Source: Winogradskyella psychrotolerans (GTDB lineage: Bacteria > Bacteroidota > Bacteroidia > Flavobacteriales > Flavobacteriaceae). Taken from it: 64,000 bases of DNA. Under the pieces are notes generated by a model. The model did not search any database. It worked only from the letters and a program-made list of their open reading frames with translations, and was not told where the DNA came from. Made by a program: the position numbers and the translations under genes. The DNA is taken from assembly GCF_018860565.1 (NCBI RefSeq), contig NZ_JAHKPS010000022.1, forward strand, positions 829,787-893,786. The letters run 5' to 3'. Shown here piece after piece: positions 526 through 22,327 of this stretch (position 1 is the first letter of the stretch; each line of letters starts with the position of its first letter).

Positions 526-957
526 TTGAAATTTAGTAAACGACATTTAGCTAAAACAATTACTTGGCGTATTATAGGAACCTTGGATACCATGCTGTTG
601 TCTTGGTTTATATCTGGTAATTTTTCTATAGGCATGAAAATGGGGCTTTATGAAATGGTCACTAAAATGGTATTGTATTATTTGCATGAACGCGTTTGGT
701 TTAAGTCAACCATAAAGTCGTCTAATAAACGCCATATTTTGAAAACGTTCTCTTGGCGTGGAGTAGGTACTTTAGATACTATTATTTTAGGTTGGGTAAT
801 TTCAGGGAATCCTCTAACAGGTTTGAAAATTGGTGGAGCAGAAGTGGTAACAAAAATGTTGTTATATTTTGGTCATGAGAAATTATGGTATCAAATTAAT
901 TTTGGTTTGGATCAGAGGAATAAAAGAAAACAGGTGAAAAACGTTAATGAATTATGA
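526..957 (+). CDS. DUF2061 family membrane protein with two tandem domains
   Basis: The 143-residue protein consists of two copies of the DUF2061 unit (about residues 5-62 and 68-128). Each copy has a K-R-H opening, the motif GTLDT, a W-(F/V)-I-S-G-N segment, then VTKM, a hydrophobic stretch and an H-E-(R/K)-(V/L)-W end. Each copy has about two membrane-spanning stretches, so four in all. The start is TTG; an ATG 23 bases upstream runs into a stop. The stop overlaps the cysC start (ATGA at 954-957), so the two are translationally coupled. The biochemical role is unknown. Its place ahead of cysC, cysD and cysN suggests a part in sulfate handling, for example uptake or membrane association, but that is inference. 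Confidence 0.85.
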   Translation: MKFSKRHLAKTITWRIIGTLDTMLLSWFISGNFSIGMKMGLYEMVTKMVLYYLHERVWFKSTIKSSNKRHILKTFSWRGVGTLDTIILGWVISGNPLTGLKIGGAEVVTKMLLYFGHEKLWYQINFGLDQRNKRKQVKNVNEL

Positions 958-1544
958 GCTTAAATACGGTTAGACATAATTATAAAATTACAAAAAAAGA
1001 TCGTGAAAATTTAAATGGGCATCGTTCTTTATTATTGTGGTTTACGGGATTGTCAGGTTCTGGTAAATCTACATTAGCTAATTTGGTAGAGATGGAGCTT
1101 CATAAAAAAGGGGTTTCAACGTTTAGTTTAGATGGGGATAATATTAGACAAGGTATTAATAAAGATTTAAGTTTTGCGCCCGAAGATCGTACTGAAAATA
1201 TTAGACGAATAGCCGAAATTGGTCATTTAATGGTTGAGGCAGGTGTGGTAACTTTAGCCGCTTTTGTATCGCCTTATATTGAAGACCGAGAGAATATAAA
1301 AAACATTGTAGGAGTAGATAATTTTGTTGAAATTTACATTAATACGTCATTAAAGGAGTGTGAACGAAGAGATGTTAAGGGCTTGTATAAAAAAGCACGA
1401 GCAGGAGAAATTAAAAATATGACAGGTATTTCGGCTCCTTATGAGGCTCCAACTAACCCAGACATAGAAGTTGTAACAGATCATCAAGATGTAGAAACAT
1501 CTGTTCAAACCATTTTAGACTTTATTATTCAAAAATTAAAATAA
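954..1544 (+). CDS. cysC: Adenylylsulfate (APS) kinase
   Basis: Cytoplasmic kinase that phosphorylates APS at the 3' position with ATP to give PAPS. The 196-residue length is normal for the family. The Walker A loop GLSGSGKST lies at about residues 32-40. It is followed by LDGDNIR, the FVSPY segment, and the family motif around GLYKKARAGEIKNMTGI with the APP-like turn SAPYEAP. The start ATG overlaps the preceding stop by 4 bases, and cysD begins 5 bases after the stop. With cysD and cysN it forms a complete route from sulfate to PAPS, the donor for both sulfate reduction and sulfotransferases. Confidence 0.96.
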   Translation: MSLNTVRHNYKITKKDRENLNGHRSLLLWFTGLSGSGKSTLANLVEMELHKKGVSTFSLDGDNIRQGINKDLSFAPEDRTENIRRIAEIGHLMVEAGVVTLAAFVSPYIEDRENIKNIVGVDNFVEIYINTSLKECERRDVKGLYKKARAGEIKNMTGISAPYEAPTNPDIEVVTDHQDVETSVQTILDFIIQKLK

Positions 1545-1549
1545 AAAAC

Positions 1550-2455
1550 ATGAGTAATTACGTGATTAATCATTTAAAAGAATTAGAATCAGAAGCTATT
1601 TTTGTGATTAGAGAAATTGCAGCGCAATTTGAAAATCCAGTATTATTATTTTCTGGTGGTAAAGATTCTATTTTACTAACGCATTTAGCTAAAAAAGCAT
1701 TTTTTCCTGCAAAAATACCCTTCCCTTTAGTCCATATCGATACAGGGCATAATTTTCCTGAAACGATTGCTTTTAGAGATCAATTAGTCGAAAAATTAGG
1801 CGTAAAACTTATTGTTGGATCTGTACAGGAATCAATTGACAAAGGGAGAGCTAAAGAGGAAACAGGTGCTGACGCTTCACGTAATTCTCTGCAAATAGTG
1901 TCGCTTTTAGATGCTATTGAAGAATATAAGGTTGATGCTGCAATGGGAGGTGCAAGACGCGATGAAGAAAAAGCACGTGCTAAAGAACGTTTCTTCTCTC
2001 ATAGAGATGAATTTGGACAATGGGATCCTAAAAATCAAAGACCAGAGTTATGGAATCTTTTTAATGGTCGAAAAAATTACGGAGAGCATTTTAGAGTGTT
2101 TCCTATTTCTAATTGGACCGAAATGGATGTATGGGAATATATTAAATTAGAAAATATTGATTTGCCATCGCTTTATTTTTCGCACCAACGCGATTGTGTA
2201 GTTAGGGATGGTGTAATATTGGCAAATTCAGAATTTATTAAGTTAAAGGAAAATGAAGAAGTGGTGAATATGACCATTCGTTACCGTACTTGTGGTGATA
2301 TGCCAATTACTGGAGCTGTAGAATCTGAAGCAGATAATTTAGATAAGATTATTGAAGAAATTGCAACAACTAGAACGACAGAACGTGGTGGACGTGCAGA
2401 TGATAAACGTGCAGAAACAGCCATGGAAGATCGTAAAAAACAAGGGTACTTTTAA
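1550..2455 (+). CDS. cysD: Sulfate adenylyltransferase subunit 2
   Basis: Catalytic subunit of the heterodimeric ATP sulfurylase (PP-loop, PAPS-reductase-like fold) that makes APS from ATP and sulfate with CysN. The PP motif LFSGGKDSILL sits at about residues 33-43. Other family segments are HIDTGHNFPET, GGARRDEEKARAKER, the EYIKLENIDLPSLYFSHQR region and the arginine-rich C-terminus ending near KQGYF. The 301-residue length is normal. It lies 5 bases behind cysC. A 123-base gap carrying a palindromic repeat separates it from cysN, which is unusual for two subunits of one enzyme. Confidence 0.96.
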   Translation: MSNYVINHLKELESEAIFVIREIAAQFENPVLLFSGGKDSILLTHLAKKAFFPAKIPFPLVHIDTGHNFPETIAFRDQLVEKLGVKLIVGSVQESIDKGRAKEETGADASRNSLQIVSLLDAIEEYKVDAAMGGARRDEEKARAKERFFSHRDEFGQWDPKNQRPELWNLFNGRKNYGEHFRVFPISNWTEMDVWEYIKLENIDLPSLYFSHQRDCVVRDGVILANSEFIKLKENEEVVNMTIRYRTCGDMPITGAVESEADNLDKIIEEIATTRTTERGGRADDKRAETAMEDRKKQGYF

Positions 2456-2476
2456 TAGAAAATAGGTTTTAGTTGT

Positions 2477-2510
2477 GAGTATTGTCCCCTTGAGGGGGCT
2501 TAAGGAGTGT
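2477..2510. repeat. 34-bp palindromic intergenic repeat, copy 1
   Basis: Begins GAGTATTGTCCCCTTGAGGG and ends AAGGAGTGT. It matches copy 2 at 3854-3887 at 31 of 34 positions. The core GTCCCC-TTGA-GGGGGC can fold into a 6-bp stem with one G-U pair. It lies between cysD and cysN. The GC-rich core stands out from the AT-rich surroundings. Confidence 0.8.
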
Positions 2511-2578
2511 ATTAAAAAAGAAATAAAACCTACTATAAATATTCACAGCCAGCAGAAAATAATAAAGAGAACAAAAAC

Positions 2579-3835
2579 ATGGATTATCAAGATATAGAAT
2601 TATTACGTTTTACAACAGCAGGAAGTGTAGATGATGGAAAAAGTACACTAATTGGACGTTTATTGTACGATAGTAAATCAATATTTCAAGACCAATTAGA
2701 TGCTGTGGAGGAGTCTAGTAAATCTAAAGGGTTTGATTATGTAGATTTGTCATTACTTACGGATGGTTTAAAATCGGAACGCGAGCAGGGTATTACAATT
2801 GATGTGGCCTATCGTTATTTTGCAACACCAAAGCGTAAATTTATCATTGCAGATACACCTGGTCATATACAATATACTAGAAATATGGTGACTGGTGCGT
2901 CTACTGCAAACTTAGCCATTATACTAATAGATGCACGAAAAGGGATGTTGGAACAAACACATAGACATGCCTTTATTGCGTCATTGTTACGTATTCCTCA
3001 TGCTATTGTATGTATTAACAAAATGGACTTGGTTGATTATAGTGAAGAAACGTACAATACGATTGTTTCAGATTTTAAATCCTTTTCTTCTAAATTAGGA
3101 ATTAAGGATATTCAATTTATTCCTATTTCGGCTTTAAATGGAGACAATGTCGTTAACCGTTCTGAAAATATGGATTGGTATCAAGGAAGTACATTAATGT
3201 ATCATTTAGAAACTGTCCATATTTCTAGTGACCATAATTTGGTTGATTGTCGTTTCCCTATTCAATCGGTAATTCGACCTCATACTTTAGAAAATCAAGA
3301 TTATAGAGGTTTTGCTGGTCGTATTGATGGTGGGGTTTTTAAACCTGGTGACAAAGTCAAATCATTACCTTCTGGCTTTGTGTCAACCATAAAAACAATA
3401 GAGCTGAATGGAGAACAAATTTCGGAAGCATTTGCTCCGATGTCTGTAACTATGACTCTAGAAGACGAAATAGATAACAGTCGTGGGGATATGATTGTGC
3501 GTGAAAATAATGTACCAGAAATTAGTCAAGATTTAGAGGTGTTAGTGACTTGGATGAGTACAAAACCAATTCAGGCGCGTACCAAAGTGGTGATTAAACA
3601 CACAACTAATGAATCTATTGGTATGGTTAAGGAATTAAAATACAAAATAGATATTAATACGTTGCATAGAATAGAAGGTATTGATAGGTTGGAGATGAAT
3701 GATATAGCAAGGATGTCTATTAGAACCGCTAAGCCTGTATTTTATGATGCTTATAAGAAAAATCGTCAAACCGGAAGTATTATTATTATAGATGAACAAA
3801 CCAATGAAACCATTGGTGCTGGGATGATTATTTAA
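2579..3835 (+). CDS. cysN: Sulfate adenylyltransferase subunit 1 (GTPase)
   Basis: EF-Tu-like GTPase subunit of ATP sulfurylase; GTP hydrolysis drives APS formation by CysD. The G motifs are clear: GSVDDGKST (about residues 16-24), DTPGH with IQYTRNM (about 91-103) and NKMD (about 146-149), followed by beta-barrel domains. At 418 residues it is the stand-alone form, without the C-terminal APS kinase of CysNC fusions, which fits the separate cysC. Both flanks carry copies of the 34-bp palindromic repeat. Confidence 0.96.
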   Translation: MDYQDIELLRFTTAGSVDDGKSTLIGRLLYDSKSIFQDQLDAVEESSKSKGFDYVDLSLLTDGLKSEREQGITIDVAYRYFATPKRKFIIADTPGHIQYTRNMVTGASTANLAIILIDARKGMLEQTHRHAFIASLLRIPHAIVCINKMDLVDYSEETYNTIVSDFKSFSSKLGIKDIQFIPISALNGDNVVNRSENMDWYQGSTLMYHLETVHISSDHNLVDCRFPIQSVIRPHTLENQDYRGFAGRIDGGVFKPGDKVKSLPSGFVSTIKTIELNGEQISEAFAPMSVTMTLEDEIDNSRGDMIVRENNVPEISQDLEVLVTWMSTKPIQARTKVVIKHTTNESIGMVKELKYKIDINTLHRIEGIDRLEMNDIARMSIRTAKPVFYDAYKKNRQTGSIIIIDEQTNETIGAGMII

Positions 3836-3853
3836 CAACTACGTTTTGTAGTG

Positions 3854-3887
3854 GAGTATTGTCCCCTTGAGGGGACTTTAGGGGTGT
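3854..3887. repeat. 34-bp palindromic intergenic repeat, copy 2
   Basis: Second copy of the element at 2477-2510, in the same orientation, 19 bases after the cysN stop. Its core GTCCCC-TTGA-GGGGAC is a perfect 6-bp inverted repeat. Differences from copy 1 fall at three positions only, one of which keeps the stem paired (G-C here against G-U). There is no U run, so it is not a classic terminator. Confidence 0.8.
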
Positions 3888-3925
3888 TTTTCAATCAAGA
3901 GAATCTTATACTTACGTTTTAATAT

Positions 3926-4714
3926 ATGAACAATAATTTAGAAATAGCAATCGGAGCAGCCCTAGAAGCAGGAAAAGCAATTCTCGACATCTATTATTCC
4001 AATGATTTTCAAGTAGAACTAAAAGGTGACGATTCGCCTTTAACCAAAGCAGATATCGCATCGCATAATGTAATTATGTCGCACTTAAGCACTACTGGTA
4101 TTCCTGTTTTATCTGAAGAAGGGAAGTCAATACCTTATGAAGAACGAAAGGATTGGGAGCAGCTTTGGATTGTAGATCCAATAGATGGTACCAAAGAATT
4201 TATTAAGCGCAATGGGGAATTTACGGTAAATATTGCACTCATAGAAAATCAGAAAACCGTACTGGGTGTTATTTATGTACCCGTTTTAAACGATCTATAT
4301 TTTTCAACTTCAGAAATGGGGGCTTTTAAAGTCAAAGTAAATTTGGAAGATTATAATGTAGATGCTTTAATGCAACAAGGCCATAAATTACCTTTAGAGC
4401 GAGAAGATAAAACCTTTACCATTGTTGCGAGTCGTTCACATAGGTCTCCAGAAACAGATGATTATATCAATCAAATGCGTGAAAAGCATGGTGCTGTAAA
4501 CCTAATTTCTAAAGGAAGCTCATTAAAGCTATGTATGGTCGCCGAAGGACAGGCGGATTGTTATCCGAGATTCGCGCCAACCATGGAATGGGATACAGCT
4601 GCAGGTCAGGCAATTTGTGAGCATGCTGGTTTTGAGGTAATAGACTGGAGTACGAAAGAACGGATGTTGTACAATAGAAATGAATTATTGAATAGTTGGT
4701 TTTTGGTGGAATAG
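3926..4714 (+). CDS. cysQ: 3'(2'),5'-bisphosphate nucleotidase
   Basis: Inositol-monophosphatase-fold enzyme that dephosphorylates PAP (or PAPS), clearing the by-product of PAPS use. Metal-binding motifs are visible: LSEEGK (about residues 59-64), DPIDGTKEF (about 83-91) with the following NGEFTVNIAL, and the C-terminal WDTAAGQAI (about 223-231). The 262-residue length is normal. It follows cysN by 90 bases containing repeat copy 2, on the same strand, which fits a shared role in PAPS turnover. Confidence 0.93.
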   Translation: MNNNLEIAIGAALEAGKAILDIYYSNDFQVELKGDDSPLTKADIASHNVIMSHLSTTGIPVLSEEGKSIPYEERKDWEQLWIVDPIDGTKEFIKRNGEFTVNIALIENQKTVLGVIYVPVLNDLYFSTSEMGAFKVKVNLEDYNVDALMQQGHKLPLEREDKTFTIVASRSHRSPETDDYINQMREKHGAVNLISKGSSLKLCMVAEGQADCYPRFAPTMEWDTAAGQAICEHAGFEVIDWSTKERMLYNRNELLNSWFLVE

Positions 4715-4787
4715 GAAAGCTTATATAATGATCTAAGGGTTTTAAAGTTACCTTTAAGTTATCTAATAAGAAGTTTTTAATTAATTC

Positions 4788-4818
4788 ATTGTGTTAAAGC
4801 GAGATTGTTTTAGTTTTG
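4788..4818 (+). promoter_or_regulatory. Promoter of the polysaccharide locus
   Basis: ATTG at 4788-4791, then 19 bases, then TAGTTTTG at 4811-4818: a full match to TAnnTTTG at the consensus spacing. The MurA-paralogue start lies 22 bases after the -7 box. This marks the 5' end of the 26-kb polysaccharide gene run. Confidence 0.7.
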
Positions 4819-4840
4819 CACTTGAATTATAATTGAGGAA

Positions 4841-6079
4841 ATGAACAACATAAAAATCCAAAAATCCCAATTAAATGGGCAGGTTAAATTAAGTGGAGCA
4901 AAAAATAGTGCTTTACGATTATTAGCAGCTAGTTTGTTAACGGGAGACGATATAGAGCTAACTAATTTTCCTAATGGATTATTAGATGTGCAGGTACATT
5001 TAAAAATGTTGGAGGTCCTTGGTAAAAACTACACTACTGAATTAGACTCAGTAAGAGTTACTGAAGATAGAAATAAAACCACCAATCATTTGCTGTGGGA
5101 AGATAGATCTATAAGAAATACCTTATTGATTTTAGGCGCTCTGACTGCACGCACGGGAGAAGGGCGTGTGCCTTTACCAGGCGGATGTAAGTTAGGAGAA
5201 AGAAAGTATGATCTTCATGTAATGCTTCTTGAGAATTTAGGAGCTAAAGTGTGGGAAGAAGATGATTATTTATGTGCAAAAGTAGATGGGAAATTAAAAG
5301 GTACAGATATTGTTCTACCTATGCGCTCAACAGGTGCGACAGAAAATTCAATAATCTGTGCGTCTCTGGCAATAGGTAAAACCACGATATGGAACCCGCA
5401 TATTAGGCCTGAGATCATCGATCTTATAGATATGCTTAATAAAATGGGAGCAAAGATTAAGGTGTTTGGTCAAAAATGTATCGAAATTGAAGGCGTACCT
5501 GAATTGAACGGTGTAAAACATAGTGTAATTCCTGATAATATGGAAGCCTTGACTTGGGCTATTGGAGCCGTTATCACTAACGGAGATGTAGAGATTCAAA
5601 ACTTTCCATTTGAGCATTTAGAAGTGCCATTAGTCTTTTTAAGAGAAAGTGGAATGAAGTTTTACCGCGGAGAAAATAGTTTAATTGTCCGTGGAGGCGA
5701 GTCTTACCCAATAGAAATAAGTACAGGGCCTTATCCGGGTATCAATTCAGATATGCAGCCTTTATTTGCTGTATATGGTGCAATGAGCAAAGGGGAATCT
5801 AAAATAATAGATTTAAGGTTTCCTGGGAGATATGGCTACGCAGAGGAATTGGCTAAAATGGGAATGCAATATAAAGTGGATGGAGATATGTTGGTGATTG
5901 ATGGCGGAGTACCTTTAAAAGGAGCAACAGTGACGGCTTTAGATTTAAGAGCTGGTATTGCCTTATTGTTGGCAGGTATGGTTGCTGATGGAGAAACGAT
6001 TATTGAAAATGCTTGGCAAATTGGCCGAGGTTATGAAAACCTAGAAAGTAAATTGAAAGGCTTAGGGGTTGATATTTAA
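4841..6079 (+). CDS. murA: MurA paralogue (enolpyruvyl transferase acting on a UDP-aminosugar)
   Basis: Member of the UDP-GlcNAc 1-carboxyvinyltransferase family, which moves enolpyruvate from PEP to the 3-OH of UDP-GlcNAc. Active-site features look intact: GAKN near residues 19-22, the mobile-loop PGGCKLG with Cys at residue 116 (E. coli Cys115), an NSDMQ segment in place of PTDMQ, the arginine-bearing RFPGRYGYAEEL region, DLRAG, and the C-terminal GRGYENLESKL. At 412 residues it is shorter than the usual 420-440. It is the first gene of the polysaccharide locus, behind its own promoter, with MurB two genes away. I infer it makes a lactyl sugar precursor for the polysaccharide rather than serving cell-wall synthesis. 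It could still be the only murA in the genome; that needs the rest of the chromosome. Confidence 0.85.
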   Translation: MNNIKIQKSQLNGQVKLSGAKNSALRLLAASLLTGDDIELTNFPNGLLDVQVHLKMLEVLGKNYTTELDSVRVTEDRNKTTNHLLWEDRSIRNTLLILGALTARTGEGRVPLPGGCKLGERKYDLHVMLLENLGAKVWEEDDYLCAKVDGKLKGTDIVLPMRSTGATENSIICASLAIGKTTIWNPHIRPEIIDLIDMLNKMGAKIKVFGQKCIEIEGVPELNGVKHSVIPDNMEALTWAIGAVITNGDVEIQNFPFEHLEVPLVFLRESGMKFYRGENSLIVRGGESYPIEISTGPYPGINSDMQPLFAVYGAMSKGESKIIDLRFPGRYGYAEELAKMGMQYKVDGDMLVIDGGVPLKGATVTALDLRAGIALLLAGMVADGETIIENAWQIGRGYENLESKLKGLGVDI

Positions 6080-6093
6080 TACAAAATAGTATT

Positions 6094-7386
6094 TTGAGTA
6101 CTTTTCTAAAAGATATTTTAAGCGTTGGTGTTTCCAAAATACTAATCATTTTATTTGGTCTCATAACTTCAATCATAGTGGCTCGAGTTCTTGGTCCTGA
6201 GCGGAATGGTATTATTGCTGCATTATTAGTATACCCATCTCTTTTTATGTCTATTGGTTCTTTGGGCATCAGACAATCAACCACCTATTTTTTAGGTAAA
6301 AATATCTTTACAGAAGGTCAAATTAAAACGGCCATAACTCAAATTTGGTTATTTACCACAGTGTTTAGTGTTGCTATTTGTTTTTTGCTTATTAGATATT
6401 TAAGCAAATCGGGAGAGAATATGTGGTTGGTTGTTTTAGCACTTCTGCCAATACCTTTTGCATTATTTAATACTTATAATTCAGGTGTTTTTTTGGGAAA
6501 AAATCAGATTAGTACATTTAATAAGATAAATTGGATTCCGACTCTAATTATTTTTGGTGTTACTTCAGTTTTAGTAATGTGGTTTTCGTTTGGTATTTCA
6601 GGATATCTCATTGCATTAACTGCTGGTCCATTGTTTGTTAGCGGTATTTTATTATTTAAAAATAAATTTATTCGAGCTTTTAGTTTTAATTATAATTGGG
6701 TAATTATAAAAAAAATGTTGTCACTTGGTTTGGTTTATGCACTTGCCTTGTTGGTCATTAATTTGAATTATAGAATTGACATTATATTATTAGATAATTT
6801 AAGTTCAGCTTTTGAAACAGGAATTTATTCAAAAGGTGTGAGTGTTACAGAATATTTATGGCAAATACCGATGTTATTAAGTACTGTAGTGTTTGCAAGG
6901 AGTGCTGTATCCAAAGATGATAGAGCATTTTCTTTGAAAGTCGCTCAGTTGTTAAGATTATCATTTTTAGCAATTGGTTTAGTTGCTTTTGCTTTGTTTT
7001 TGCTGTCTAAATTTGTCATCATATTAATGTATGGAGAGTCTTTTGAAGGAAGTGTTATGGTGCTTAACATGCTTCTGCCAGGTGTATTATTACTTACTAT
7101 TTTTAAAGTGATTAATATGGATTTGTCAGGAAAAGGAAAGCCTTGGGTATCTCTTAAAGCAATGATTCCTGCGCTAATGATAAATGTAGTTTTGAATATT
7201 GTTTTTATACCAAAGTATGGTGCGGTTGGAGCTGCGTTAGCATCAACTATTAGTTATAGTTTTGCAGCATTGTTATTTATCTATTTTTATAGTAAGGTAA
7301 TAAAAATCCCAATATTAGAATTGATTAAGTATAAAAGATCAGATTTTCAACCCATTGTCCAACTTATAAAAAAACTAAAATCATAA
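6094..7386 (+). CDS. Wzx-type oligosaccharide flippase
   Basis: Polytopic inner-membrane protein of 430 residues with about 12 hydrophobic helices, of the MATE/MOP polysaccharide transporter superfamily. The N-terminus (about residues 10-30) shows the typical amphipathic lead and ITSIIVARVLGPE segment. The C-terminal part has GKGKPW and the GAVGAALASTISY pattern common in this family. It would flip undecaprenyl-linked repeat units across the membrane. The start is TTG at 6094, 14 bases after the murA paralogue. MurB follows after 2 bases, so it is embedded between the two Mur-type genes. Confidence 0.88.
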   Translation: MSTFLKDILSVGVSKILIILFGLITSIIVARVLGPERNGIIAALLVYPSLFMSIGSLGIRQSTTYFLGKNIFTEGQIKTAITQIWLFTTVFSVAICFLLIRYLSKSGENMWLVVLALLPIPFALFNTYNSGVFLGKNQISTFNKINWIPTLIIFGVTSVLVMWFSFGISGYLIALTAGPLFVSGILLFKNKFIRAFSFNYNWVIIKKMLSLGLVYALALLVINLNYRIDIILLDNLSSAFETGIYSKGVSVTEYLWQIPMLLSTVVFARSAVSKDDRAFSLKVAQLLRLSFLAIGLVAFALFLLSKFVIILMYGESFEGSVMVLNMLLPGVLLLTIFKVINMDLSGKGKPWVSLKAMIPALMINVVLNIVFIPKYGAVGAALASTISYSFAALLFIYFYSKVIKIPILELIKYKRSDFQPIVQLIKKLKS

Positions 7387-7388
7387 CG

Positions 7389-8246
7389 ATGCGAGTTTAT
7401 AACGATTTTGATTTAAAATTATATAATTCATATAGAGTAAACTCTAAATGCAGAACTGCTTATTTTCCAGAAAACGAAAATGATTTAGTTGAGTTATATA
7501 CATCAAATAAAGAGTATATTCTTTTAGGAAGTGGACATAATATCATTTTGTCAAAAGACTATTACAATGAGAACTTTATAATTTTTAATGGAAATTATGA
7601 TGCAGTTGAGGTTGATGTCCATAGCAATGTTATTAGTGCTGAAGCTGGTGCGACAATTTTAGAAGTTAGTGAGGCTGCCGAAAAGCATAGCTTAGCAGGC
7701 GTGGAGTTTTTTTATGATATCCCAAGTTCTGTTGGAGGTGCAGTAGTTATGAATGCAGGTACTAAGGAAGGGGAAACTAAAAATGTATTACAAAAAGTGC
7801 GTTACTTGGATTTAATAGATATGTGTATTAAAGAAAAAGTTAATGAAGAATTAGAGTTGGAGTATCGCAATAGTATCTTTCAAAAGCAAAAAGATAAAGT
7901 GATTTTGAAAGCTTGGTTTCAACTTAGTAGCGGAAATCAATCTAAAATCAGGAGAATAATGAATGAGTCTAAAGAGAGACGATGGTCTAAACAGCCTAGA
8001 GAATTTCCAAATAGTGGAAGTGTTTTTAAACGACCACCAGGATGTTTTGTTGGACCTATGATTGATGAATTAGGATTGAAAGGGTTTACTATAGGCGGTG
8101 CTCAAGTTTCAAAAAAGCATAGTGGATTTATTGTTAATGTTAATAATGCCAGTGGTTCAGATATAATTGAAATTATAAAACATACTCAAAGTAAAGTTAA
8201 GGAGAAATACAATATAGATTTAGAAATTGAACAACGTATTATATGA
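7389..8246 (+). CDS. murB: MurB paralogue (UDP-enolpyruvyl-sugar reductase)
   Basis: FAD-dependent reductase family that turns UDP-GlcNAc-enolpyruvate into UDP-N-acetylmuramate using NADPH. FAD-binding segments are present: LLGSGHNIIL (about residues 46-55) and IPSSVGGAVVMNAG (about 111-124). YRNSIF and NSGSVFKRP follow, with the likely proton-donor Ser at residue 211. The C-terminus has IGGAQVSKKHSGFIVN and LEIEQRII with candidate catalytic Glu 279/281. At 285 residues it resembles the short type II MurB rather than the longer E. coli type. The stop overlaps the next glycosyltransferase start (ATGA), so it is locked into the polysaccharide operon. With the MurA paralogue this implies synthesis of a lactyl-ether sugar for the polymer. 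Confidence 0.88.
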   Translation: MRVYNDFDLKLYNSYRVNSKCRTAYFPENENDLVELYTSNKEYILLGSGHNIILSKDYYNENFIIFNGNYDAVEVDVHSNVISAEAGATILEVSEAAEKHSLAGVEFFYDIPSSVGGAVVMNAGTKEGETKNVLQKVRYLDLIDMCIKEKVNEELELEYRNSIFQKQKDKVILKAWFQLSSGNQSKIRRIMNESKERRWSKQPREFPNSGSVFKRPPGCFVGPMIDELGLKGFTIGGAQVSKKHSGFIVNVNNASGSDIIEIIKHTQSKVKEKYNIDLEIEQRII

Positions 8247-9394
8247 CCATCGTTTATTTTATTACCACAGTTGGTCACGGAAAAGGTGGCCATTTTCATA
8301 GTTTAAATACCATTGCTAATGCAATAGGTGAAACTGAAAATGTACACGTGATTAATCTTGGTGTTAAACCTTCAGAAGTTTTAGATAAGACTAACTATGA
8401 GGTGTCATTTATCAATTTTAATGGTTATAATTTTATATCAGTTTTCTTTCGAATAAAAAAACTAATAAAAGAAATAAAGCCAAACGCCATACACGCTTTT
8501 GATGTAGAGTCGTTTGCGTTTAGTCGATTGTTTTCAAAACGAATTAATCAAGCTTCATTTTTAAATAAATGTGGAGGGCCAAACCCTAAGAAGTATTTTC
8601 CTGTATCTGATAATTTAGTACTTTTTAGTAAAGAAAATAAAGCTTATTTCGAAAGTAAGGAACGTTATAATCTTACAAAGCTTATACTAATCCCTAATCG
8701 AGTAAGACCTGTTAAGTTGGATAGCTCTAGGATTGAAGCATTTTATGCAAAACATGGTAAAGCTGACCTCTCTTTATTAAGAATTGCAAGGATAGGAAAG
8801 CATTATCATAAATCTATCAGTCAAGCTATTAATTTAGTTTCTTGGCTAAAAGCTAAAGGTTGTAATGTGCGGTTAATTGTAATTGGGACCATTCAAAGTG
8901 AGACCAATTACAATGCTATTGTAGAGGAAGTAAAGTCTAAAGGTTTAGAAAAAGATGTTATTATTGAAACTTCAGACGAGTTTACCTATAATGCAAGTGA
9001 GGTATTAGATGTGGGAGATGTTATTGTTGGAACGGGTCGTAATTTTATGGAAGCTTCAAGTTTGAATAAAATGTTATTAGTGCCCTATAAAGATACCGAT
9101 TATCCATTGCTAGTTGCAGATAACAATTTTGAGGCTATTTTTGCGACTAATTTTTCACCAAGAACGCAGGTTACTGATTTTAATGAGCAAGCCAACTTAG
9201 ATTCTATTTATAAGGCATTGAAAAGTAAAGAAGAAAGAACTTCAAAATTATGGTTTGAAGCTTATTTCAATGTTAAAAATGGAGTTGATTTGTATAAAAA
9301 GGTATATTTAAATCAAGACGTGCTTAAAAACTCAAATCTTATAGATACTTTCGCAAATATATTATACGCGATTAAAACATTTGTTTTAAAATAG
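8243..9394 (+). CDS. Glycosyltransferase, GT-B fold (GT4-like)
   Basis: 383-residue cytoplasmic protein with an N-terminal glycine/histidine-rich loop (VGHGKGGHFHSLN, about residues 10-22) typical of acceptor-binding halves of GT-B enzymes. Its C-terminal Rossmann-like half starts near RIARIGKHYHKS and includes VRLIVIGT. The classic E-x7-E of GT4 is not obvious; the region around GTGRNFMEASSLNKMLLVP occupies that place. It overlaps murB by 4 bases and precedes an ATP-grasp gene by 10 bases. It probably adds one sugar of the repeat unit. Its position right behind murB makes the lactyl sugar a plausible donor, which is inference. Confidence 0.75.
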   Translation: MTIVYFITTVGHGKGGHFHSLNTIANAIGETENVHVINLGVKPSEVLDKTNYEVSFINFNGYNFISVFFRIKKLIKEIKPNAIHAFDVESFAFSRLFSKRINQASFLNKCGGPNPKKYFPVSDNLVLFSKENKAYFESKERYNLTKLILIPNRVRPVKLDSSRIEAFYAKHGKADLSLLRIARIGKHYHKSISQAINLVSWLKAKGCNVRLIVIGTIQSETNYNAIVEEVKSKGLEKDVIIETSDEFTYNASEVLDVGDVIVGTGRNFMEASSLNKMLLVPYKDTDYPLLVADNNFEAIFATNFSPRTQVTDFNEQANLDSIYKALKSKEERTSKLWFEAYFNVKNGVDLYKKVYLNQDVLKNSNLIDTFANILYAIKTFVLK

Positions 9395-9404
9395 TTGCAA
9401 CAGA

Positions 9405-10430
9405 ATGAAGTTTACATATTATAAATATAGAACCAAGATTAATATTATTAAGAAAGATTTAAAGGATAAATTCCCCATAGGTTTTTCTAAGAAAATAGGA
9501 CTATGGAGAAAAGGGTTTTTAGCTGAAAAATATACGCTTTATCAACTCGATAAAAACAACTACAAAGATTATTTAAGCGATTACCATGCAGCGATGGCAA
9601 GGTGGATTAATGAACCATTCAATGAATTGTTAACTAATAAGTTAATCTTTTCTGAGTATGTTGGTAAATATATTCAAGTGCCAAAAACCTTTGGTATTAT
9701 AGTAAGTGGACAGTTTTATTCTAACGATAGCAGATCAATTGAAGATCTTATTAATCAATTTGAAATTTTTGTTGTAAAAATCATCTCTGGTGGTGGAGGT
9801 AAAGGAGTTTATATTATTAAAAAAGAAAGTGATAATCAGTTTTTAGTTAACAATACTAAAACATACAGTTCGAAGGAATTACTCGCTTTTTTTAAAACCT
9901 TAAACAATTATATTTTTACTGATTATATAGAACCAAGTGAATTTTCAAAATCACTTAATGCGACTTCCGTAAATACCATGCGTATTATAACACTAATTGA
10001 TCCAGAAACAAATAAAGCATTTATAGCAAGAGCCGTTCAACGTATAGGAGTAGCAGCATCTGCGCCACAAGATAATTTTACAAAAGGAGGTTTAAGTGCT
10101 TCAATTAATCTAGAAACAGGTCAATTAAGTGACTGTACAAGGCACCCTAAAGCTAAAGAGCATAAAAGATATACGCATCATCCAGATACTAACGTTAAAA
10201 TTGAAGGGACTATTATACCGGATTGGTCTTCTATAAAAACAGAGATCCTAGATGCTGCTAATAGTTTACCGATGTTAAAATGTGTAGGGTGGGATTTTGT
10301 GCTAAGTACTAAAGGTTTAGTCGCTATTGAAGGTAATCATCATCCAGATCCAGATGTTTTGCAAGGACATGAGCCGTTATTAACAGACGAGCGAATAAAA
10401 GCATTTTACAAATTTCATAAAATCCTATAA
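9405..10430 (+). CDS. Sugar-transfer-associated ATP-grasp protein
   Basis: 341-residue cytoplasmic protein of the ATP-grasp superfamily, most like the sugar-transfer-associated type (ATPgrasp_ST). The nucleotide-binding glycine loop is VKIISGGGGKGVYII at about residues 125-139. Further on come VNTMRIITL (about 191-199), a FTKGGLSASI segment, and the metal-binding end GWDFVLSTKGLVAIEGNHHPDPDV (quoted residues in two parts: GWDFV and EGNHHPDPDV near 309). ATP-grasp enzymes activate a carboxylate as acyl phosphate and join it to an amine or thiol. Between MurB/glycosyltransferase and the asparagine-synthetase gene, it may ligate an amino acid to a sugar carboxylate. Confidence 0.82.
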   Translation: MKFTYYKYRTKINIIKKDLKDKFPIGFSKKIGLWRKGFLAEKYTLYQLDKNNYKDYLSDYHAAMARWINEPFNELLTNKLIFSEYVGKYIQVPKTFGIIVSGQFYSNDSRSIEDLINQFEIFVVKIISGGGGKGVYIIKKESDNQFLVNNTKTYSSKELLAFFKTLNNYIFTDYIEPSEFSKSLNATSVNTMRIITLIDPETNKAFIARAVQRIGVAASAPQDNFTKGGLSASINLETGQLSDCTRHPKAKEHKRYTHHPDTNVKIEGTIIPDWSSIKTEILDAANSLPMLKCVGWDFVLSTKGLVAIEGNHHPDPDVLQGHEPLLTDERIKAFYKFHKIL

Positions 10431-10433
10431 TTT

Positions 10434-12359
10434 ATGTGTGGCTTTACAGGCTTTATCAATTTACATAATCAACCATTAAAAAGTCATGTGTTAAAACAGA
10501 TGACAGATATACAGGCGCATAGAGGTCCTGATGATCAAGGTATGGTTGGTTTTTCGTTGTTCAAGGATCAAAAAATCAATGTGATTGATAATGAAACAGC
10601 AGAGTTTAGTCATCTAAATGCAGGTATTGGTTTTAATAGACTATCTATTTTAGACCTTTCTAAAAAAGGCCATCAACCAATGATTTCTGGTTGCGGCAAT
10701 TATATTTTGGCATATAATGGTGAAACTTACAATGCATTATCCTTTAGAGATGAATTAATAGCCAAAGGACACCCTATTCAAAGCCATACAGACTCTGAAG
10801 TTATACTCTATTTGTACATAGAATATGGTATAGATAAGACCTTAGAGTTGCTCAATGGCATGTTTGCTTTCATTATAGTAGATTTAAAATTAAGAAAAAG
10901 CTTTATCGTTAGAGATCAATTGGGTATTAAGCCAATGTATATCTATAAGACGCCAAATGTTTTAATGTTTTCATCTGAAATAAAATCATTTACTAAACAT
11001 CCAGATTTTAAAGCAGAACTGAATTCTAATCATCTCGATGAATATTTATTGTTCAGATATTGCGCTCACGACAGAACGTTATATAAAGACGTGAAGCAAG
11101 TACCTCCAGGACATTATTACGAAATTACTGAAGACAAAATTGAAGTTAAGGAATATTGGTCTTATAAAATGGTTGATAAAGAGGAGCTTTTAAATCCTAA
11201 GGATGCATTAGAAAAATTAAACCAAACATTTAAAGAAAGTATTAAATCACAGTTAATGAGCGATGTTCTTGTGGGTTGTCAGTTGTCTGGAGGCATTGAT
11301 TCTTCTTTAGTGACCACGTATGCGCGTGAGTTTTTTAACGCTAATATGGATACGTTTTCCATTGTATTTTCAGACGAAAAATATTCCGAAGAAGAGTTTA
11401 TTACTTACGTTACAAATCACACTAATTCAGATTCACATAGATATCAATATTCTAACGAATACGCTTTTGAGAATTTTTACAAGGCCACTTGGCACCTAGA
11501 TCAACCTATTAGTATTCCTAATACCTTAGGTATAAAACGCCTTGCAGAACGAGCTAGAGAGAATGTAACGGTGCTTTTAAGTGGAGAAGGTGCAGACGAG
11601 TTATTTGGAGGCTACTCTAGATATCATGATTTGTCATGTAGATATAATATGAATCTTAAAGGCTATTCTAAAGTTCCTGTTATTGGTAATAGAATAAAAA
11701 GCAAGTATAACTTAGAACAAACACCTGAAGATTTCTTTGTAATGAGTAGTTCAGCTTTAAGTATGAGTGATTTTAATAAATTTAGTATCGCTAATGATAT
11801 TGAAACGGTTGTGAGTCAGCGCAAAGAACTATTTCCTTCGCAAGGCGACTTAATAAAAAGAGCCTCAGTATACGATCTAAAAACCTATATGGTAGATTTG
11901 TTAAACAGACAAGATAAAATGACCATGGCGCATTCTGTAGAAAACAGAGTACCATTTTTGGATAAAAACATGGTGGAACTTGTAATGAAGTTACCGACAG
12001 AATTATTAGTTAAAAAATGTAATGACGTTAGACATTTAAACAAGCCAAACACCTACACTAAACACATACTGAAGGAACTTGCTGTAAAACGATTTAATAA
12101 AAATTTTGTTTACCGAGAAAAAAGCGGATTTCCGTTGCCAGTAAAAGACTTATTTTTGAAAACAGGGATGAATCAGCTTATTGAAGACCAATTACTGCCA
12201 GGTATAAAAAACAGAGGTGTTTTTGATCATAACGAAGTTTATAAAATATGGAATAAAAAGAACGGGGAGTTTTCTAAAAGTGACCTTAAGAATTTATGGA
12301 TGTTTTTTGCTTTCGAAACTTGGGCACAAACATTTTTAGACGGTATATATAATGGTTAA
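10434..12359 (+). CDS. asnB: Asparagine synthetase-type glutamine amidotransferase
   Basis: 641 residues in two domains. The N-terminal glutaminase domain has the nucleophile Cys2 (MCGFTGF), then RGPDDQG, NRLSILDL and YNGETYNA. The C-terminal ATP-pyrophosphatase domain has LSGGIDSSL at about residues 283-291, LSGEGADELFGGYSRY and DKMTMAHSVENRVPFLD. It activates a carboxylate with ATP and transfers ammonia from glutamine. In polysaccharide loci such proteins often amidate uronic or other acidic sugars rather than make free asparagine. Here a lactyl carboxyl from MurA/MurB is a candidate target. It lies 3 bases after the ATP-grasp gene, and its last 8 bases overlap the CapA-like gene, which argues for coupled function. 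Confidence 0.88.
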   Translation: MCGFTGFINLHNQPLKSHVLKQMTDIQAHRGPDDQGMVGFSLFKDQKINVIDNETAEFSHLNAGIGFNRLSILDLSKKGHQPMISGCGNYILAYNGETYNALSFRDELIAKGHPIQSHTDSEVILYLYIEYGIDKTLELLNGMFAFIIVDLKLRKSFIVRDQLGIKPMYIYKTPNVLMFSSEIKSFTKHPDFKAELNSNHLDEYLLFRYCAHDRTLYKDVKQVPPGHYYEITEDKIEVKEYWSYKMVDKEELLNPKDALEKLNQTFKESIKSQLMSDVLVGCQLSGGIDSSLVTTYAREFFNANMDTFSIVFSDEKYSEEEFITYVTNHTNSDSHRYQYSNEYAFENFYKATWHLDQPISIPNTLGIKRLAERARENVTVLLSGEGADELFGGYSRYHDLSCRYNMNLKGYSKVPVIGNRIKSKYNLEQTPEDFFVMSSSALSMSDFNKFSIANDIETVVSQRKELFPSQGDLIKRASVYDLKTYMVDLLNRQDKMTMAHSVENRVPFLDKNMVELVMKLPTELLVKKCNDVRHLNKPNTYTKHILKELAVKRFNKNFVYREKSGFPLPVKDLFLKTGMNQLIEDQLLPGIKNRGVFDHNEVYKIWNKKNGEFSKSDLKNLWMFFAFETWAQTFLDGIYNG

Positions 12360-13491
12360 ACTTATTATTGGAGGAGACATCTGTGCAACTAAAAGAGACG
12401 AAAAGACTTTTTTAGAAGGAGATGCTCGGCAATTATTTACCGATGTGTTACCAGAAATTCAAGCTGCAGATTTTGCGATTGCTAATCTGGAAACTCCTTT
12501 AATAAATGCGCAAACACCAATTAAAAAAAGTGGTGCTGTTTTTGGGAATTCTCCTAAAATGTTAAATGCTATAAAACAAAGTGGTATTACTTATTTAAAT
12601 TTAGCAAATAACCACATTTTAGATCATGGTGAAAAAGGACTAAAAAGCACATTAGAAGCTCTAAAGGAAAATCAATTTGATTTTTCTGGGGCAGGTGAAA
12701 CATTAAAAGATGCTTCTGAACCATTTAGAGCAACTATAAAAGAAAAAAATATAACTGTGCTTAGTTATGCTGAAAACGAATTTTCTATAGCAGAAAATGG
12801 TCAGCCTGGTGCAAATCCAGTAGATGTTATAGATTTTGTAACAAGGATAAAAGCTCTTAAAGATTCAAGTGATTTTATAATTTTATTATATCATGGAGGT
12901 AAAGAAAATTATAATTTACCTTCACCAAAACAGCAGAAACTATGTCGCTTCTTTATAGATCAGGGTGTTAATATGGTGGTTTGCCAACATTCGCATACAG
13001 CTGGAGTTTACGAGACATATAATCAAGGAAATATCTATTACGGTCAAGGTAATTTTATCTTTGATGCCTATCCGCTAAAAAGAGATTGGCTATACAAAGG
13101 TTATTTGATAGAAGTAGTGTTACATGATGATAATACAACAGATATAAAACTTATCCCATACCTGCACAAAAGCTTTCTAAAAGATGAAATTGGCATAAGA
13201 AAAATGACAACCGAAGAAGCAAAACCTTTTATGAATCATATTGATGAAGCTTCTCAAAAGATGATTAAAAACCCTAATTATATTCAAGAAGAATGGCTTA
13301 AATTATCAAAGTCACTAGAGAATACCTATTTTAGTATTTTAAATGGTAATGGTAAGGTGATGCGTAAGTTAAATGAAAAATTCTCGTGGTTAAAATTGAT
13401 ATATAAAAACGATAGAAAATTGGTATTAAAGAATATTGTGACTTGCGAAACGCATCGAGAAATTGTTGAAACTATTTTAAAAGATAAATAG
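12352..13491 (+). CDS. CapA/PgsA-like metallophosphatase-fold protein
   Basis: 379 residues of the CapA family, known from poly-gamma-glutamate capsule synthesis and related to calcineurin-like phosphoesterases. Candidate metal-ligand motifs are all present: GGD at the N-terminus (residues 6-8), ANLETPL (about 46-52), NLANNHILDHG (about 83-93), LYHGGKENY (about 180-188) and CQHSHTAG (about 213-220). There is no signal peptide or membrane helix, unlike B. subtilis PgsA, so it is probably cytoplasmic. It overlaps asnB by 8 bases and ends 1 base before a second ATP-grasp gene. Its partners suggest a role in attaching or processing amino-acid substituents; the reaction is unknown. Confidence 0.85.
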   Translation: MVKLIIGGDICATKRDEKTFLEGDARQLFTDVLPEIQAADFAIANLETPLINAQTPIKKSGAVFGNSPKMLNAIKQSGITYLNLANNHILDHGEKGLKSTLEALKENQFDFSGAGETLKDASEPFRATIKEKNITVLSYAENEFSIAENGQPGANPVDVIDFVTRIKALKDSSDFIILLYHGGKENYNLPSPKQQKLCRFFIDQGVNMVVCQHSHTAGVYETYNQGNIYYGQGNFIFDAYPLKRDWLYKGYLIEVVLHDDNTTDIKLIPYLHKSFLKDEIGIRKMTTEEAKPFMNHIDEASQKMIKNPNYIQEEWLKLSKSLENTYFSILNGNGKVMRKLNEKFSWLKLIYKNDRKLVLKNIVTCETHREIVETILKDK

Positions 13492-13492
13492 T

Positions 13493-14581
13493 ATGAAGGA
13501 CAAATTCATTTTAGCAATTAAAAAATTTGTGTACTATCATTTTAACGTCTTTGATTATAGAGGCAAAAAGGCTATTGAGTCTGTCTATGAAATCACAAAA
13601 CAAGAAGAGCAAACCTTCGAGAATTCTAAATATACAGTTGGAATTCTTAAAGAAAATTGGCATCTTCATAGTAACTATATTAGAGCGTTCCAAGAATTAA
13701 ATATATCGTATAGAGTTATAGATTTCTTTTCTAAAGATTGGTTAGATGATTTAAAATTAAAACCTATTGATTTTTTAATTGCAAGACCTTCTGTACAGTA
13801 TACACCTTGGAAAGATATGTTTGATAACCGTTTAAAGTTGTTAAACGATAGTATCAATATTCCCGTATTTCCTAATTATAACGAATTGTGGATTTGGGAA
13901 AGCAAATTAAGAACTTTAGATTGGTTAAAAGTTAATAACCTTCCACATCCAACATCGCTTATTTTTTACGATTTCGAAGAACTTATTCAATATTCTAAAA
14001 CGTGTAAATACCCAATTGTGTATAAGGCAAGTAGTGGTTCTGGTGCTTCAGGAGTAAAGATTTTAAACAATCCTTCACAGTTAAAAAGTGTTGCAAAAAA
14101 AGTCTTTAATTCTGGTATCAGAAGTTATAGAAAACACAAATTAGATAAAGAGCATGGCTCTGTTATTTTACAAGGGTATTTAGAGGATGTAAAAGAGTGG
14201 AGAATTATTAGAATAGGGGATTATTATTTTGGGTTCGAGAAGCTTAAAAACGGTCAGTTTCATAGTGGTTCTCAGAATTTTGGTTATGGAATGCCACCAC
14301 AAGAATGTCTAAATCTTGTAAAGCTTGTAACAGATACATTTAATTTTAAGTATGTAGATATAGATATTTTTGTAACGCAACAAGGAGAGTTTCTTATTAA
14401 TGAAATTCAGCCTTACTTTGGGCAAAAAGATGATAGAGAGTTATTGCAAATCGAAGGAGAGTCTGGACGATTATCATTTAATATAATAACTAAAACTTGG
14501 GATTTTGAAAAGGGTGAGTTTTGTAAAAACAATTTATGTAACCTAAGAGTTTTAGAAATGATTAAAACACTTACAAATTGA
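13493..14581 (+). CDS. RimK/glutathione-synthetase-like ATP-grasp ligase
   Basis: 362-residue cytoplasmic protein. The glycine-rich ATP loop YKASSGSGASGVKIL lies near residues 178-192. The acidic metal-binding strand is VDIDIF (about 287-292), followed by FLINEIQPYFGQ (about 300-311) with the typical N-E-x-Q. The preceding part holds an RPS motif and an N-terminal Rossmann-like region. It joins a carboxylate to an amine by an acyl-phosphate route; the natural pair is not predictable. It is the second ATP-grasp enzyme of the cluster and differs clearly from the first, so two different amide bonds may be made. The stop overlaps the Wzy start (TTGA). Confidence 0.82.
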   Translation: MKDKFILAIKKFVYYHFNVFDYRGKKAIESVYEITKQEEQTFENSKYTVGILKENWHLHSNYIRAFQELNISYRVIDFFSKDWLDDLKLKPIDFLIARPSVQYTPWKDMFDNRLKLLNDSINIPVFPNYNELWIWESKLRTLDWLKVNNLPHPTSLIFYDFEELIQYSKTCKYPIVYKASSGSGASGVKILNNPSQLKSVAKKVFNSGIRSYRKHKLDKEHGSVILQGYLEDVKEWRIIRIGDYYFGFEKLKNGQFHSGSQNFGYGMPPQECLNLVKLVTDTFNFKYVDIDIFVTQQGEFLINEIQPYFGQKDDRELLQIEGESGRLSFNIITKTWDFEKGEFCKNNLCNLRVLEMIKTLTN

Positions 14582-15741
14582 AGTTACTAATATTTCTAAT
14601 TAAATGGGGATTTCCTCTACTTCTAATTACTGATTTGAGCTCTGACTTGTTTCAAAGTACTTTAATATTAAATGTTTCTAGGACTTTAAGATTGATAATC
14701 TTAATCCTGATCATAAAAGAGAATATTACAAACTTTAATATTATAAGAAAGTTTTACTTTTTCAAGTATTTCATGTGGTTTGCAGTTATTTTATTTTTAT
14801 ACTTATTTACTGATCAAGATGTTTTTGAAGCTTTTTGGATATATTCAAAAATGTTATATTGGATATTAGGAATAAATGTTTTGTATGTATATGCTTTTAA
14901 GAACCTTTTAACTCTTAATGATTTTATTGGTGTTGTTAAAAAAGTAGTTGTTGTAGCTTTTGTGTTTACAGTACTTTACTACTTGACGGGTGCAATAAAA
15001 GATGATTATAATATTGCTGCATATTTAGTTTTGTTTCTTTTTCCAGTAATTTTATTAAGCACAGAAGGTTATAGTAAAAATAAATTTTTCATAATGCTTT
15101 CAGCATTAGCGATTCTAATAACTTTGAAAAGAGGAGCTATGTTAGCTTTTGTATTAGGGAATTTAATTTATTATTTAGGTAATTTAAAAAATGATTTTAG
15201 TCTTAAAAAGTTAGCAACAGGAGTGCTTATTTTTATAACAATAAGTTTTGCTGGATTATACATTCTTGAAAGTCAGAAAGATTCAATTGCAGATCGTTTT
15301 AGTGAAGAGCAATTTGATCCTAATAATGAAAAAGCAGGTTCAGGTCGTGTAGGAACATATACTAAATTGTTTGAAACATGGTATAATTCAGATAATCTGA
15401 TTTTTGGCTTTGGAAATCAAGAAGATTCCAGACGTAAAGTAGGTCGGAGAATACATGCTCATAGTGATGTGTTTGGATTTCTCTATAATCATGGTGTAAT
15501 AGGCATTTTATTAATATTAATTTTATATATAAAAGTGATAAAATTTTATTTTTCATTTAGAAAGTATGACAAGGAAAATTCCTCTATAATTTTATCATTA
15601 TTTATTATACTCGTACTAGTAAATTTCTATTCAGGAATGTTTAGAACGACCGATGCAATATACTTTTTCGCCTTATTACCTTATTTACAATTAAGAAGAG
15701 ATGCCATTAAACAAAGTTTTTATATTAACCAATCCGCTTAA
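14578..15741 (+). CDS. Wzy-type polysaccharide polymerase (O-antigen ligase family)
   Basis: 387-residue membrane protein with about 10 hydrophobic helices. A periplasmic loop holds the family-type pattern SGRVGTY...FGFGNQ...AHSDVFGFLYNHGVIG (about residues 257-310), like the Wzy_C/O-antigen ligase domain. The single copy, next to Wzx and Wzc, fits the block polymerase of the repeat unit. The TTG start overlaps the preceding stop by 4 bases. The gene end overlaps the next glycosyltransferase by 41 bases. Confidence 0.82.
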   Translation: MKLLIFLIKWGFPLLLITDLSSDLFQSTLILNVSRTLRLIILILIIKENITNFNIIRKFYFFKYFMWFAVILFLYLFTDQDVFEAFWIYSKMLYWILGINVLYVYAFKNLLTLNDFIGVVKKVVVVAFVFTVLYYLTGAIKDDYNIAAYLVLFLFPVILLSTEGYSKNKFFIMLSALAILITLKRGAMLAFVLGNLIYYLGNLKNDFSLKKLATGVLIFITISFAGLYILESQKDSIADRFSEEQFDPNNEKAGSGRVGTYTKLFETWYNSDNLIFGFGNQEDSRRKVGRRIHAHSDVFGFLYNHGVIGILLILILYIKVIKFYFSFRKYDKENSSIILSLFIILVLVNFYSGMFRTTDAIYFFALLPYLQLRRDAIKQSFYINQSA

Positions 15742-17990: not shown

Positions 17991-18006
17991 AGTTTAATAT
18001 AACGAC

Positions 18007-18978: not shown

Positions 18979-19011
18979 ACAGAATAACAACTGATAAAAA
19001 AAATAGATTAA

Positions 19012-21150: not shown

Positions 21151-21212
21151 TTTAACCTGAATGCGAAAACAAAAATCATCTCAAAATAATAATCGAACAA
21201 AGTAGAAATTTA

Positions 21213-22325: not shown

Positions 22326-22327
22326 GG

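Follow-up and report, generated by a model that had tools for sequence, protein, structure and literature searches.

A MurA/MurB pair in a Wzx/Wzy polysaccharide locus of Winogradskyella psychrotolerans: a probable cassette for a lactyl-ether sugar of an exported polymer

We analysed a 64,000-nucleotide stretch of the Winogradskyella psychrotolerans genome (contig NZ_JAHKPS010000022.1, positions 829,787 to 893,786; hereafter the window), in which a murA-like gene, a wzx gene and a murB-like gene are tightly packed on the plus strand within one polysaccharide locus. The two Mur-type proteins, here called MurA' and MurB', very likely form a dedicated cassette that makes a lactyl-ether nucleotide sugar for the exported polymer of this Wzx/Wzy locus. 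That the product is strictly uridine diphosphate (UDP)-N-acetylmuramic acid (UDP-MurNAc) we hold at slightly better than even. The first-pass annotation of this DNA had proposed a lactyl-ether sugar in an exported polymer. This proposal is supported by the co-occurrence of the two genes, by independent pairs in Alphaproteobacteria, by the distinct clades and kept catalytic residues of both proteins, and by a glycosyltransferase and a Wzx lineage that travel with them.

The open reading frames (ORFs) and their Pfam and NCBIfam matches confirmed the coordinates, order and motifs first assigned to the three genes. MurA' (4841-6079, + strand; 412 aa) is a MurA-family enolpyruvyl transferase with the motif PGGCKLG and matches PF00275 with 244 bits. 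The Wzx-type flippase (6094-7386, +; 430 aa; Pfam) has a TTG start, and MurB' (7389-8246, +; 285 aa) is a MurB-family reductase of type II that matches PF02873 with 109 bits and PF01565 with 48 bits. The intergenic distances from murA' through wzx and murB' to the following glycosyltransferase gene (GT1, 8243-9394, +; PF13477) are 14, 2 and -4 bases, the last of which bears out the reported overlap of the murB' stop with the glycosyltransferase start (8246 vs. 8243). All genes from murA' up to that of WecG type at 24488 share one strand and are spaced by -41 to 62 bases. Wzx, Wzy, glycosyltransferases, WecG and WecB were recognised by Pfam, and WecA, Wza and Wzc by eye, which together identify a Wzx/Wzy-dependent locus. 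A chance similarity of ORFs was rejected because the Pfam and NCBIfam profiles and the predicted folds agree with MurA and MurB. The model of MurA', built from a nine-sequence alignment, had a predicted local distance difference test (pLDDT) score of 89.7 and matched the PDB entry 1naw best (template-modelling (TM) score 0.95 by query length). The model of MurB', built in the same way, had a pLDDT of 78.4 and matched 1hsk best (TM 0.83 by query length).

The positions K22, N23, R91, C115, R120, D305, R331, D369, R371 and R397 (E. coli numbering) are kept in 17/17 MurA' sequences. We take K22, C115, R120, D305, R331, R371 and R397 of E. coli MurA to be catalytic or phosphoenolpyruvate (PEP)-site residues. 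Likewise, R159, K217, S229 and E325 (E. coli numbering) are kept in all 13 MurB' sequences, Ser211 and Glu281 of the window's protein aligning with Ser229 and Glu325; presumably these four residues act in the MurB active site, the serine as general acid. From these features we infer a pathway in which MurA' would transfer enolpyruvate from PEP onto the O-3 position of a UDP-linked amino sugar, with UDP-N-acetylglucosamine (UDP-GlcNAc) as the most likely acceptor. MurB', using flavin adenine dinucleotide (FAD) and NADPH, would reduce the enolpyruvyl group to a lactyl ether, so that UDP-MurNAc or one of its close relatives results. The lactyl sugar would be added to the lipid-linked repeat unit by a glycosyltransferase, of which GT1 is the likeliest, and the co-travelling Wzx would flip the unit and Wzy would polymerise it.

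The host genome (3.9 Mb, 99.95% complete) was searched for a second murA and murB, since the proposal had been made to depend on these not being the only copies. Another copy of each was found, and single-copy MurA/MurB was rejected. The other MurA (C28) has 438 aa, is 36% identical to MurA' and carries the active-site loop PGGDKIG. The other MurB (C1) has 337 aa, aligns with MurB' in two stretches of 25 and 35% identity, and groups with E. coli MurB as type I. The remark that both locus proteins are shorter than cell-wall versions is thus right for the copies of this genome, but E. coli MurA (419 aa) exceeds MurA' by just 7 aa.

Placement in trees, which had been suggested as a check, put MurA' and MurB' each in a clade distinct from the genome's own cell-wall copy; both are quick trees with no bootstrap. 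The 17 locus-type MurA' sequences formed one side of a branch against 33 others, with a support of 99 in the Shimodaira-Hasegawa-like approximate likelihood ratio test (SH-aLRT), or 100 without long rows. These others were the 29 best-scoring phylum rows, the own cell-wall copy, and the MurA of E. coli, Aeromonas and Limosilactobacillus, a set that is thin for other phyla. The MurA' of L045 and L077, about 39% identical to that of the window, stand apart inside the clade. In the MurB tree, for which 25 of 75 Bacillota-type loci were used, the 13 MurB' sequences formed one side of a branch (SH-aLRT 98), away from the genus's own MurB and nested in a larger group that also holds type II MurB of Bacillota (94).

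We examined how the pair is distributed. At E ≤1e-30 MurB' was found in 8/60 genomes of the genus and 3/199 of the family, and at 1e-55 in 1/395 genomes of the order, which was the window itself. These low frequencies fit the earlier statement that murA and murB are not usual among capsule genes. MurA' was found at 1e-75 in seven of the same 60 genus genomes, a set identical to the MurB' carriers except for G624, in which MurB' stands alone (233 of 285 aa) and runs off the end of a 6.1-kb contig. In the family sample MurA' occurred in four of the 199 genomes, namely that of the window, two other MurB' carriers and G172. In 13/13 Bacteroidota loci read with both (window, L044-L051, L075-L078) the two genes share a strand and MurA' is the 5' one. 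A contig scan with two peptide patterns, which was not exhaustive, added carriers with MurA' just 5' of MurB' among the matches listed: Psychroserpens burtonensis, Flavobacterium aurantiibacter, Olivibacter sitiensis and Pelagihabitans pacificus. A fifth Bacteroidota match lay on a 3.7-kb contig that has no MurA, and 75 of at least 80 loci among the matches listed, mostly Bacillota by title, had no MurA in the available flanks.

In the phylum sample, 32/395 genomes matched MurB' at 1e-30, all besides the window with ≤39% identity. These matches were rejected as further capsule loci, because 19 of the 20 read resemble the cell-wall (dcw) cluster with FtsA- or FtsZ-like neighbours by eye; the 20 were hand-picked across families from the 31 other hit genomes rather than being the best 20, and 11 were not read. 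The twentieth locus read, L074, did not fall clearly into this class: it holds, in a distant phylum genome, a type II-like MurB with a long branch (6326-7342) that lies outside the dcw cluster, and no MurA was present within the 13 kb examined.

Outside Bacteroidota, seven alphaproteobacterial plasmid records carry a MurA 58-65% identical to MurA', the next best among the matches listed being at 41%. A MurB adjoins this MurA in 7/7 records and belongs to a lineage other than MurB' (three were placed in the tree, and the other four are 94-97% identical to one of these). It is hard to explain one MurA clade standing beside two MurB lineages unless both reactions belong together. The Agrobacterium pair is surrounded by genes for an O-antigen ligase, a glycosyltransferase and a Wzc-like kinase; the pair of Rhizobium sp. 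CC1099 stands beside genes recognised by eye as GT2-like and Wzx-like; and the Qingshengfaniella pair is followed by a GT2 gene, its wider surroundings being catabolic and transport genes. The plasmid MurB matches of Stenotrophomonas, Lysinibacillus and Burkholderia cenocepacia had no MurA listed in the three regions and lie in other contexts (the first two judged by annotation only). The B. cenocepacia plasmid pBCJ2315 (L160) carries at 7980-8855 an extra MurB, 37% identical to MurB' and near it in the tree with support below 95, beside carbamoyltransferase-like and NUDIX genes and with no MurA in 16.9 kb.

Two further genes travel with the pair. A GT1 homologue was present in 13/14 MurA' loci (window, L044-L051, L075-L078, L166) and in 0/15 comparison loci, and the Wzx lineage in 10/14 and 0/15, respectively; the queries for both were drawn from MurA'-positive loci, and because the loci are related to one another the counts do not represent independent events. 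Within the genus alone the values were 7/7 for GT1 and 6/7 for Wzx vs. 0/15. Some of the matches are weak, GT1 being 28% identical in L045, L048 and L078 and Wzx 33% in L051. The comparison loci were genus wecG loci without MurA', taken up to 20 kb 5' of wecG (L208-L222, with L216 and L217 short). wecG occurred in 22/60 genus genomes, of which six have MurA'/MurB', and 15 of the other 16 were usable, L223 (0.6 kb) being left out of the GT1 and Wzx counts. We propose GT1 as the candidate transferase for the sugar and Wzx as a candidate flippase tuned to the repeat unit.

The cell-wall and locus-type enzymes differ at the cysteine bound by fosfomycin. In the window's order, 30/30 cell-wall MurA sequences carry Asp there (29 PGGDKIG and one PGGDAIG; L224-L253, own copy L002 1477-2793), read from a sample of 40 genomes searched and 38 with a match. 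The Cys is present in 17/17 locus-type MurA. Gram-positive bacteria are known to carry a second MurA, and MurA' and MurB' are true MurA and MurB homologues by profile and fold, so they might be back-up or stress copies for the wall, for example for fosfomycin tolerance, that merely sit in a capsule locus. We regard this as very improbable. Cys in the locus enzyme and Asp in the wall enzyme is the wrong way round for tolerance, and the pair sits tightly within a capsule operon, is inherited together with a single Wzx and a single glycosyltransferase family, and is missing from most of the 60 genus genomes searched. Excerpts of a review (PMC6801904) report MurA with Asp in place of this Cys from fosfomycin-resistant Mycobacteria and Chlamydia. 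With Asp in the wall enzyme and Cys in the capsule enzyme, fosfomycin should therefore hit MurA' and block the capsule sugar and spare the wall MurA, a prediction that offers a clean chemical test in which one polymer would be stopped and the other spared.

Several observations weigh against the lactyl-sugar cassette as drawn above. The first is G172, which has MurA' (75%), Wzx and a GT1 homologue (L166, 9386-13710) but no MurB' in the genome, its MurB being type I and cell-wall-like only; it is one clear exception among the four MurA' genomes of the family sample. This raises the idea that MurA' alone matters in some loci, making an enolpyruvyl (unsaturated) sugar or relying on the cell-wall MurB for the reduction. 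We find this hardly probable, because G172 is a single genome and a MurB is present in each of the 20 further MurA' loci that were read (13 in Bacteroidota and 7 in Alphaproteobacteria).

The second group of observations concerns altered residues. Compared with other MurA, V/I327 near the substrate site is replaced by Arg in 17/17, V122 by Tyr in 17/17 and P121 by Lys in 14/17 MurA' sequences. In MurB' the GIPG flavin loop reads DIPS (Gly110 to Asp and Gly113 to Ser, 13/13), and Tyr126 of the NAGAYG loop is lost (to Lys or Ser), which departs from the type II loop. The MurB' model is uncertain at the altered loops, with pLDDT below 50 at 110-112, 123-128 and 161-164. The tightest equivalog cut-offs are passed by both proteins with a narrow margin only: MurA' scored 396.2 vs. 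392.7 bits with TIGR01072 (murA), and MurB' scored 260.3 vs. 259 with NF010480 (211.4 vs. 144.5 bits with TIGR00179, murB). The short type II MurB first reported is borne out by gaps at the type I Tyr190 and Tyr254 stretches in 13/13 MurB' and by the active-site residues, but not by the GIPG and NAGAYG loops. We class MurB' as a divergent type II relative rather than a standard member, though it passes the profile cut-offs. Both proteins look like active enzymes whose substrate or flavin sites have shifted from the cell-wall type.

The changed FAD-loop glycines could also mean that the genes are relics, inactive paralogues left by capsule-locus shuffling. This is the least probable of the explanations we considered, because the frames are open, the catalytic residues are invariant across genera and phyla, and the pair stays together in 13/13 Bacteroidota loci with a whole MurB' and in 7/7 alphaproteobacterial records.

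The same residues bear on the acceptor. The cassette might act on another nucleotide sugar, such as UDP-N-acetylmannosamine (UDP-ManNAc), whose WecB-type epimerase is encoded at 25458-26549 (+), and so make a relative of muramic acid rather than MurNAc. The Arg for V/I327 and the Tyr for V122 are locus-specific changes near the nucleotide-sugar site that cross phyla. The NAGAYG Tyr is lost in both MurB lineages that pair with MurA', including the alphaproteobacterial partner, and is kept in 89/94 comparison type II MurB, and further lactyl sugars are known in polysaccharides (PMC8466920, in excerpt). Single MurA' residues nevertheless make a weak case for a changed substrate: at several of these positions the genome's own cell-wall MurA, too, differs from that of E. 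coli, so that they are in themselves no proof of another substrate. Both proteins also still pass the equivalog cut-offs. We consider another acceptor rather unlikely, though it takes up what strict UDP-MurNAc leaves of the broad lactyl-ether reading, and keep UDP-GlcNAc as the presumed substrate of the cassette.

The genes that follow GT1 suggest how the lactyl sugar might be modified. They encode, all on the plus strand, a sugar-transfer associated ATP-grasp protein as a candidate amide-forming enzyme (9405-10430; PF14397), an asparagine-synthase-like amidotransferase (10434-12359; PF00733, PF13537), a CapA/PgsA-family protein (12352-13491; PF09587) and a second ATP-grasp-like protein (13493-14581; PF02786 weak, RimK-like weak). 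Amide-forming enzymes (AsnB-like or ATP-grasp) were found by all methods in 7/7 genus MurA'/MurB' loci vs. 3/14 comparison loci (Fisher test, 0.001), by local profiles alone in 6/7 vs. 3/14 (0.016), and with some Pfam support only in 5/7 vs. 3/14 (0.056). CapA was found in 6/7 vs. 2/14 (0.003). L217 (5.7 kb) and L223 were left out of these counts. The association of amide enzymes and CapA with the MurA'/MurB' loci is suggestive only: the count varies with the method used, the local profiles were built from positive loci (including the L050 protein), and the loci are related to one another. For amide enzymes, L047 and L049 were counted by local profile only (Pfam gave nothing in the L047 protein, and that of L049 was in the pooled scan only), and L048 was counted for amide enzymes by a weak Pfam match only (E 9.4e-5). 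Pfam for the comparison set covered 101 of 112 filtered proteins and the 25 commonest of 66 families. A muropeptide-like capsule is conceivable, in which the locus ATP-grasp and asparagine-synthase-like enzymes would amidate the lactyl carboxyl with an amino acid or ammonia. It would be a second invention of peptide-bearing muramic acid without the MurC-F ligases, on an acceptor that may differ from GlcNAc. We put this forward tentatively, as a rather unlikely possibility.

The remainder of the locus, also on the plus strand, encodes a Wzy-type polymerase (14578-15741; PF04932), two glycosyltransferases (15701-16834 and 16821-17990; PF13692/PF00534) and a membrane acyltransferase (18007-18978; PF01757). 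It continues with a WecG/TagA-type glycosyltransferase and a WecB-type UDP-GlcNAc 2-epimerase (both Pfam) and a WecA-like initiating transferase (by eye) at 24488-27790, and with a Wza-like export protein and a Wzc-like kinase, named by eye, at 27858-30957. In several relatives within the genus, homologues of the WecG/WecB/WecA block likewise come 3' of the variable region. An oxidoreductase fusion and a formyltransferase-like protein were also named in the locus by Pfam or NCBIfam. A 370-aa locus protein (21213-22325) had no Pfam or NCBIfam match at E 0.001, and phage records gave no DNA match.

A consensus promoter had been reported at murA'. The sigma-70 scan listed no promoter in the 126-base gap 5' of murA', and in 4600-9500 it gave 21 sites vs. 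22.4 expected, which is no excess. A stretch of the form TTG-N19-TAGTTTTG, which we take to be the Bacteroidota promoter form, lies at 4789-4818 (+) and is a possible promoter that, taken by itself, is no better than chance, its downstream element occurring 11 times in the window vs. 8.5 expected and so no more often than by chance. The reported promoter thus has weak support. Directly 5' of murA' (526-4714) are genes for a DUF2061 protein, cysC, cysD, cysN and a cysQ-like protein, which belong to 3'-phosphoadenosine 5'-phosphosulfate synthesis. The same five genes are found at L046, among the seven genus loci with MurA' and MurB', and not within the available flanks of the others (L051 begins at a contig end). 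No sulfotransferase was found by Pfam among the window proteins scanned (4841-24486).

That capsules and O-antigens can contain muramic acid is established chemistry (PMC7247339, PMC4515632), which the first-pass annotation did not mention; the cassette is the new part, as far as the literature found shows, these and the papers below being cited from excerpts unless stated otherwise. Lactyl ethers are also reported elsewhere, as a 4-O-lactyl mannose in Salinivibrio (PMC8466920) and as (R)- and (S)-lactic ethers listed in O-antigens (PMC10609480). The excerpts name no genes for the synthesis of these sugars. In one polysaccharide preparation muramic acid was marked as a contaminant (PMC11989651), and genes are not given in the excerpts of that paper or of PMC12409901. 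The terms muramic, murA and murB are absent from the main text of two Yersinia ruckeri genome papers (PMC5320707, PMC5552943). Among the papers listed from the open-licence literature, none was seen to assign murA or murB to a capsule or an O-antigen, which is not proof of absence because most carbohydrate-chemistry papers lie outside it. The cassette of MurA', MurB', a glycosyltransferase and Wzx is named and testable, can be searched for in other surface-polysaccharide loci, and may point to the genes behind known lactyl sugars of bacterial coats. If the reading is true, a surface residue of MurNAc type would bear on lysozyme-like enzymes, phage receptors and the innate recognition of wall fragments.

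Several known systems resemble the cassette in part. The capsule of Vibrio vulnificus ATCC 27562 contains N-acetylmuramic acid, with an amide-linked serine reported (PMC7247339). It is likewise an exported MurNAc polysaccharide and its locus joins transport genes and wecA as that of the window does, but it comes from another phylum and its MurNAc genes are not named in the excerpts of that paper. A lactyl-ether amino sugar on the surface is also shared with the lipooligosaccharide of Psychrobacter arcticus, in which N-acetylmuramic acid is reported, and with the O-antigens of Y. ruckeri O1 and Proteus penneri, cited with N-acetylmuramic or isomuramic acid (PMC4515632), all of which are, unlike the window's host, Gammaproteobacteria. 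The Rhizobium, Agrobacterium and Qingshengfaniella plasmid pairs have a MurA of the same clade with MurB adjacent, and polysaccharide-type genes surround the Agrobacterium and CC1099 pairs, but their MurB is of a separate lineage. The MurA and MurB steps of peptidoglycan synthesis, from UDP-GlcNAc to UDP-MurNAc, use the same two families, catalytic residues and folds; the locus pair differs in lying in a capsule locus besides the cell-wall pair, in forming its own clades and in its changed residues near the substrate. NikO of nikkomycin synthesis offers a precedent for an enolpyruvyl transferase of MurA fold recruited to another product (PMC6801904; 4fqd), but it acts on uridine monophosphate, and MurA' is far closer to true MurA.

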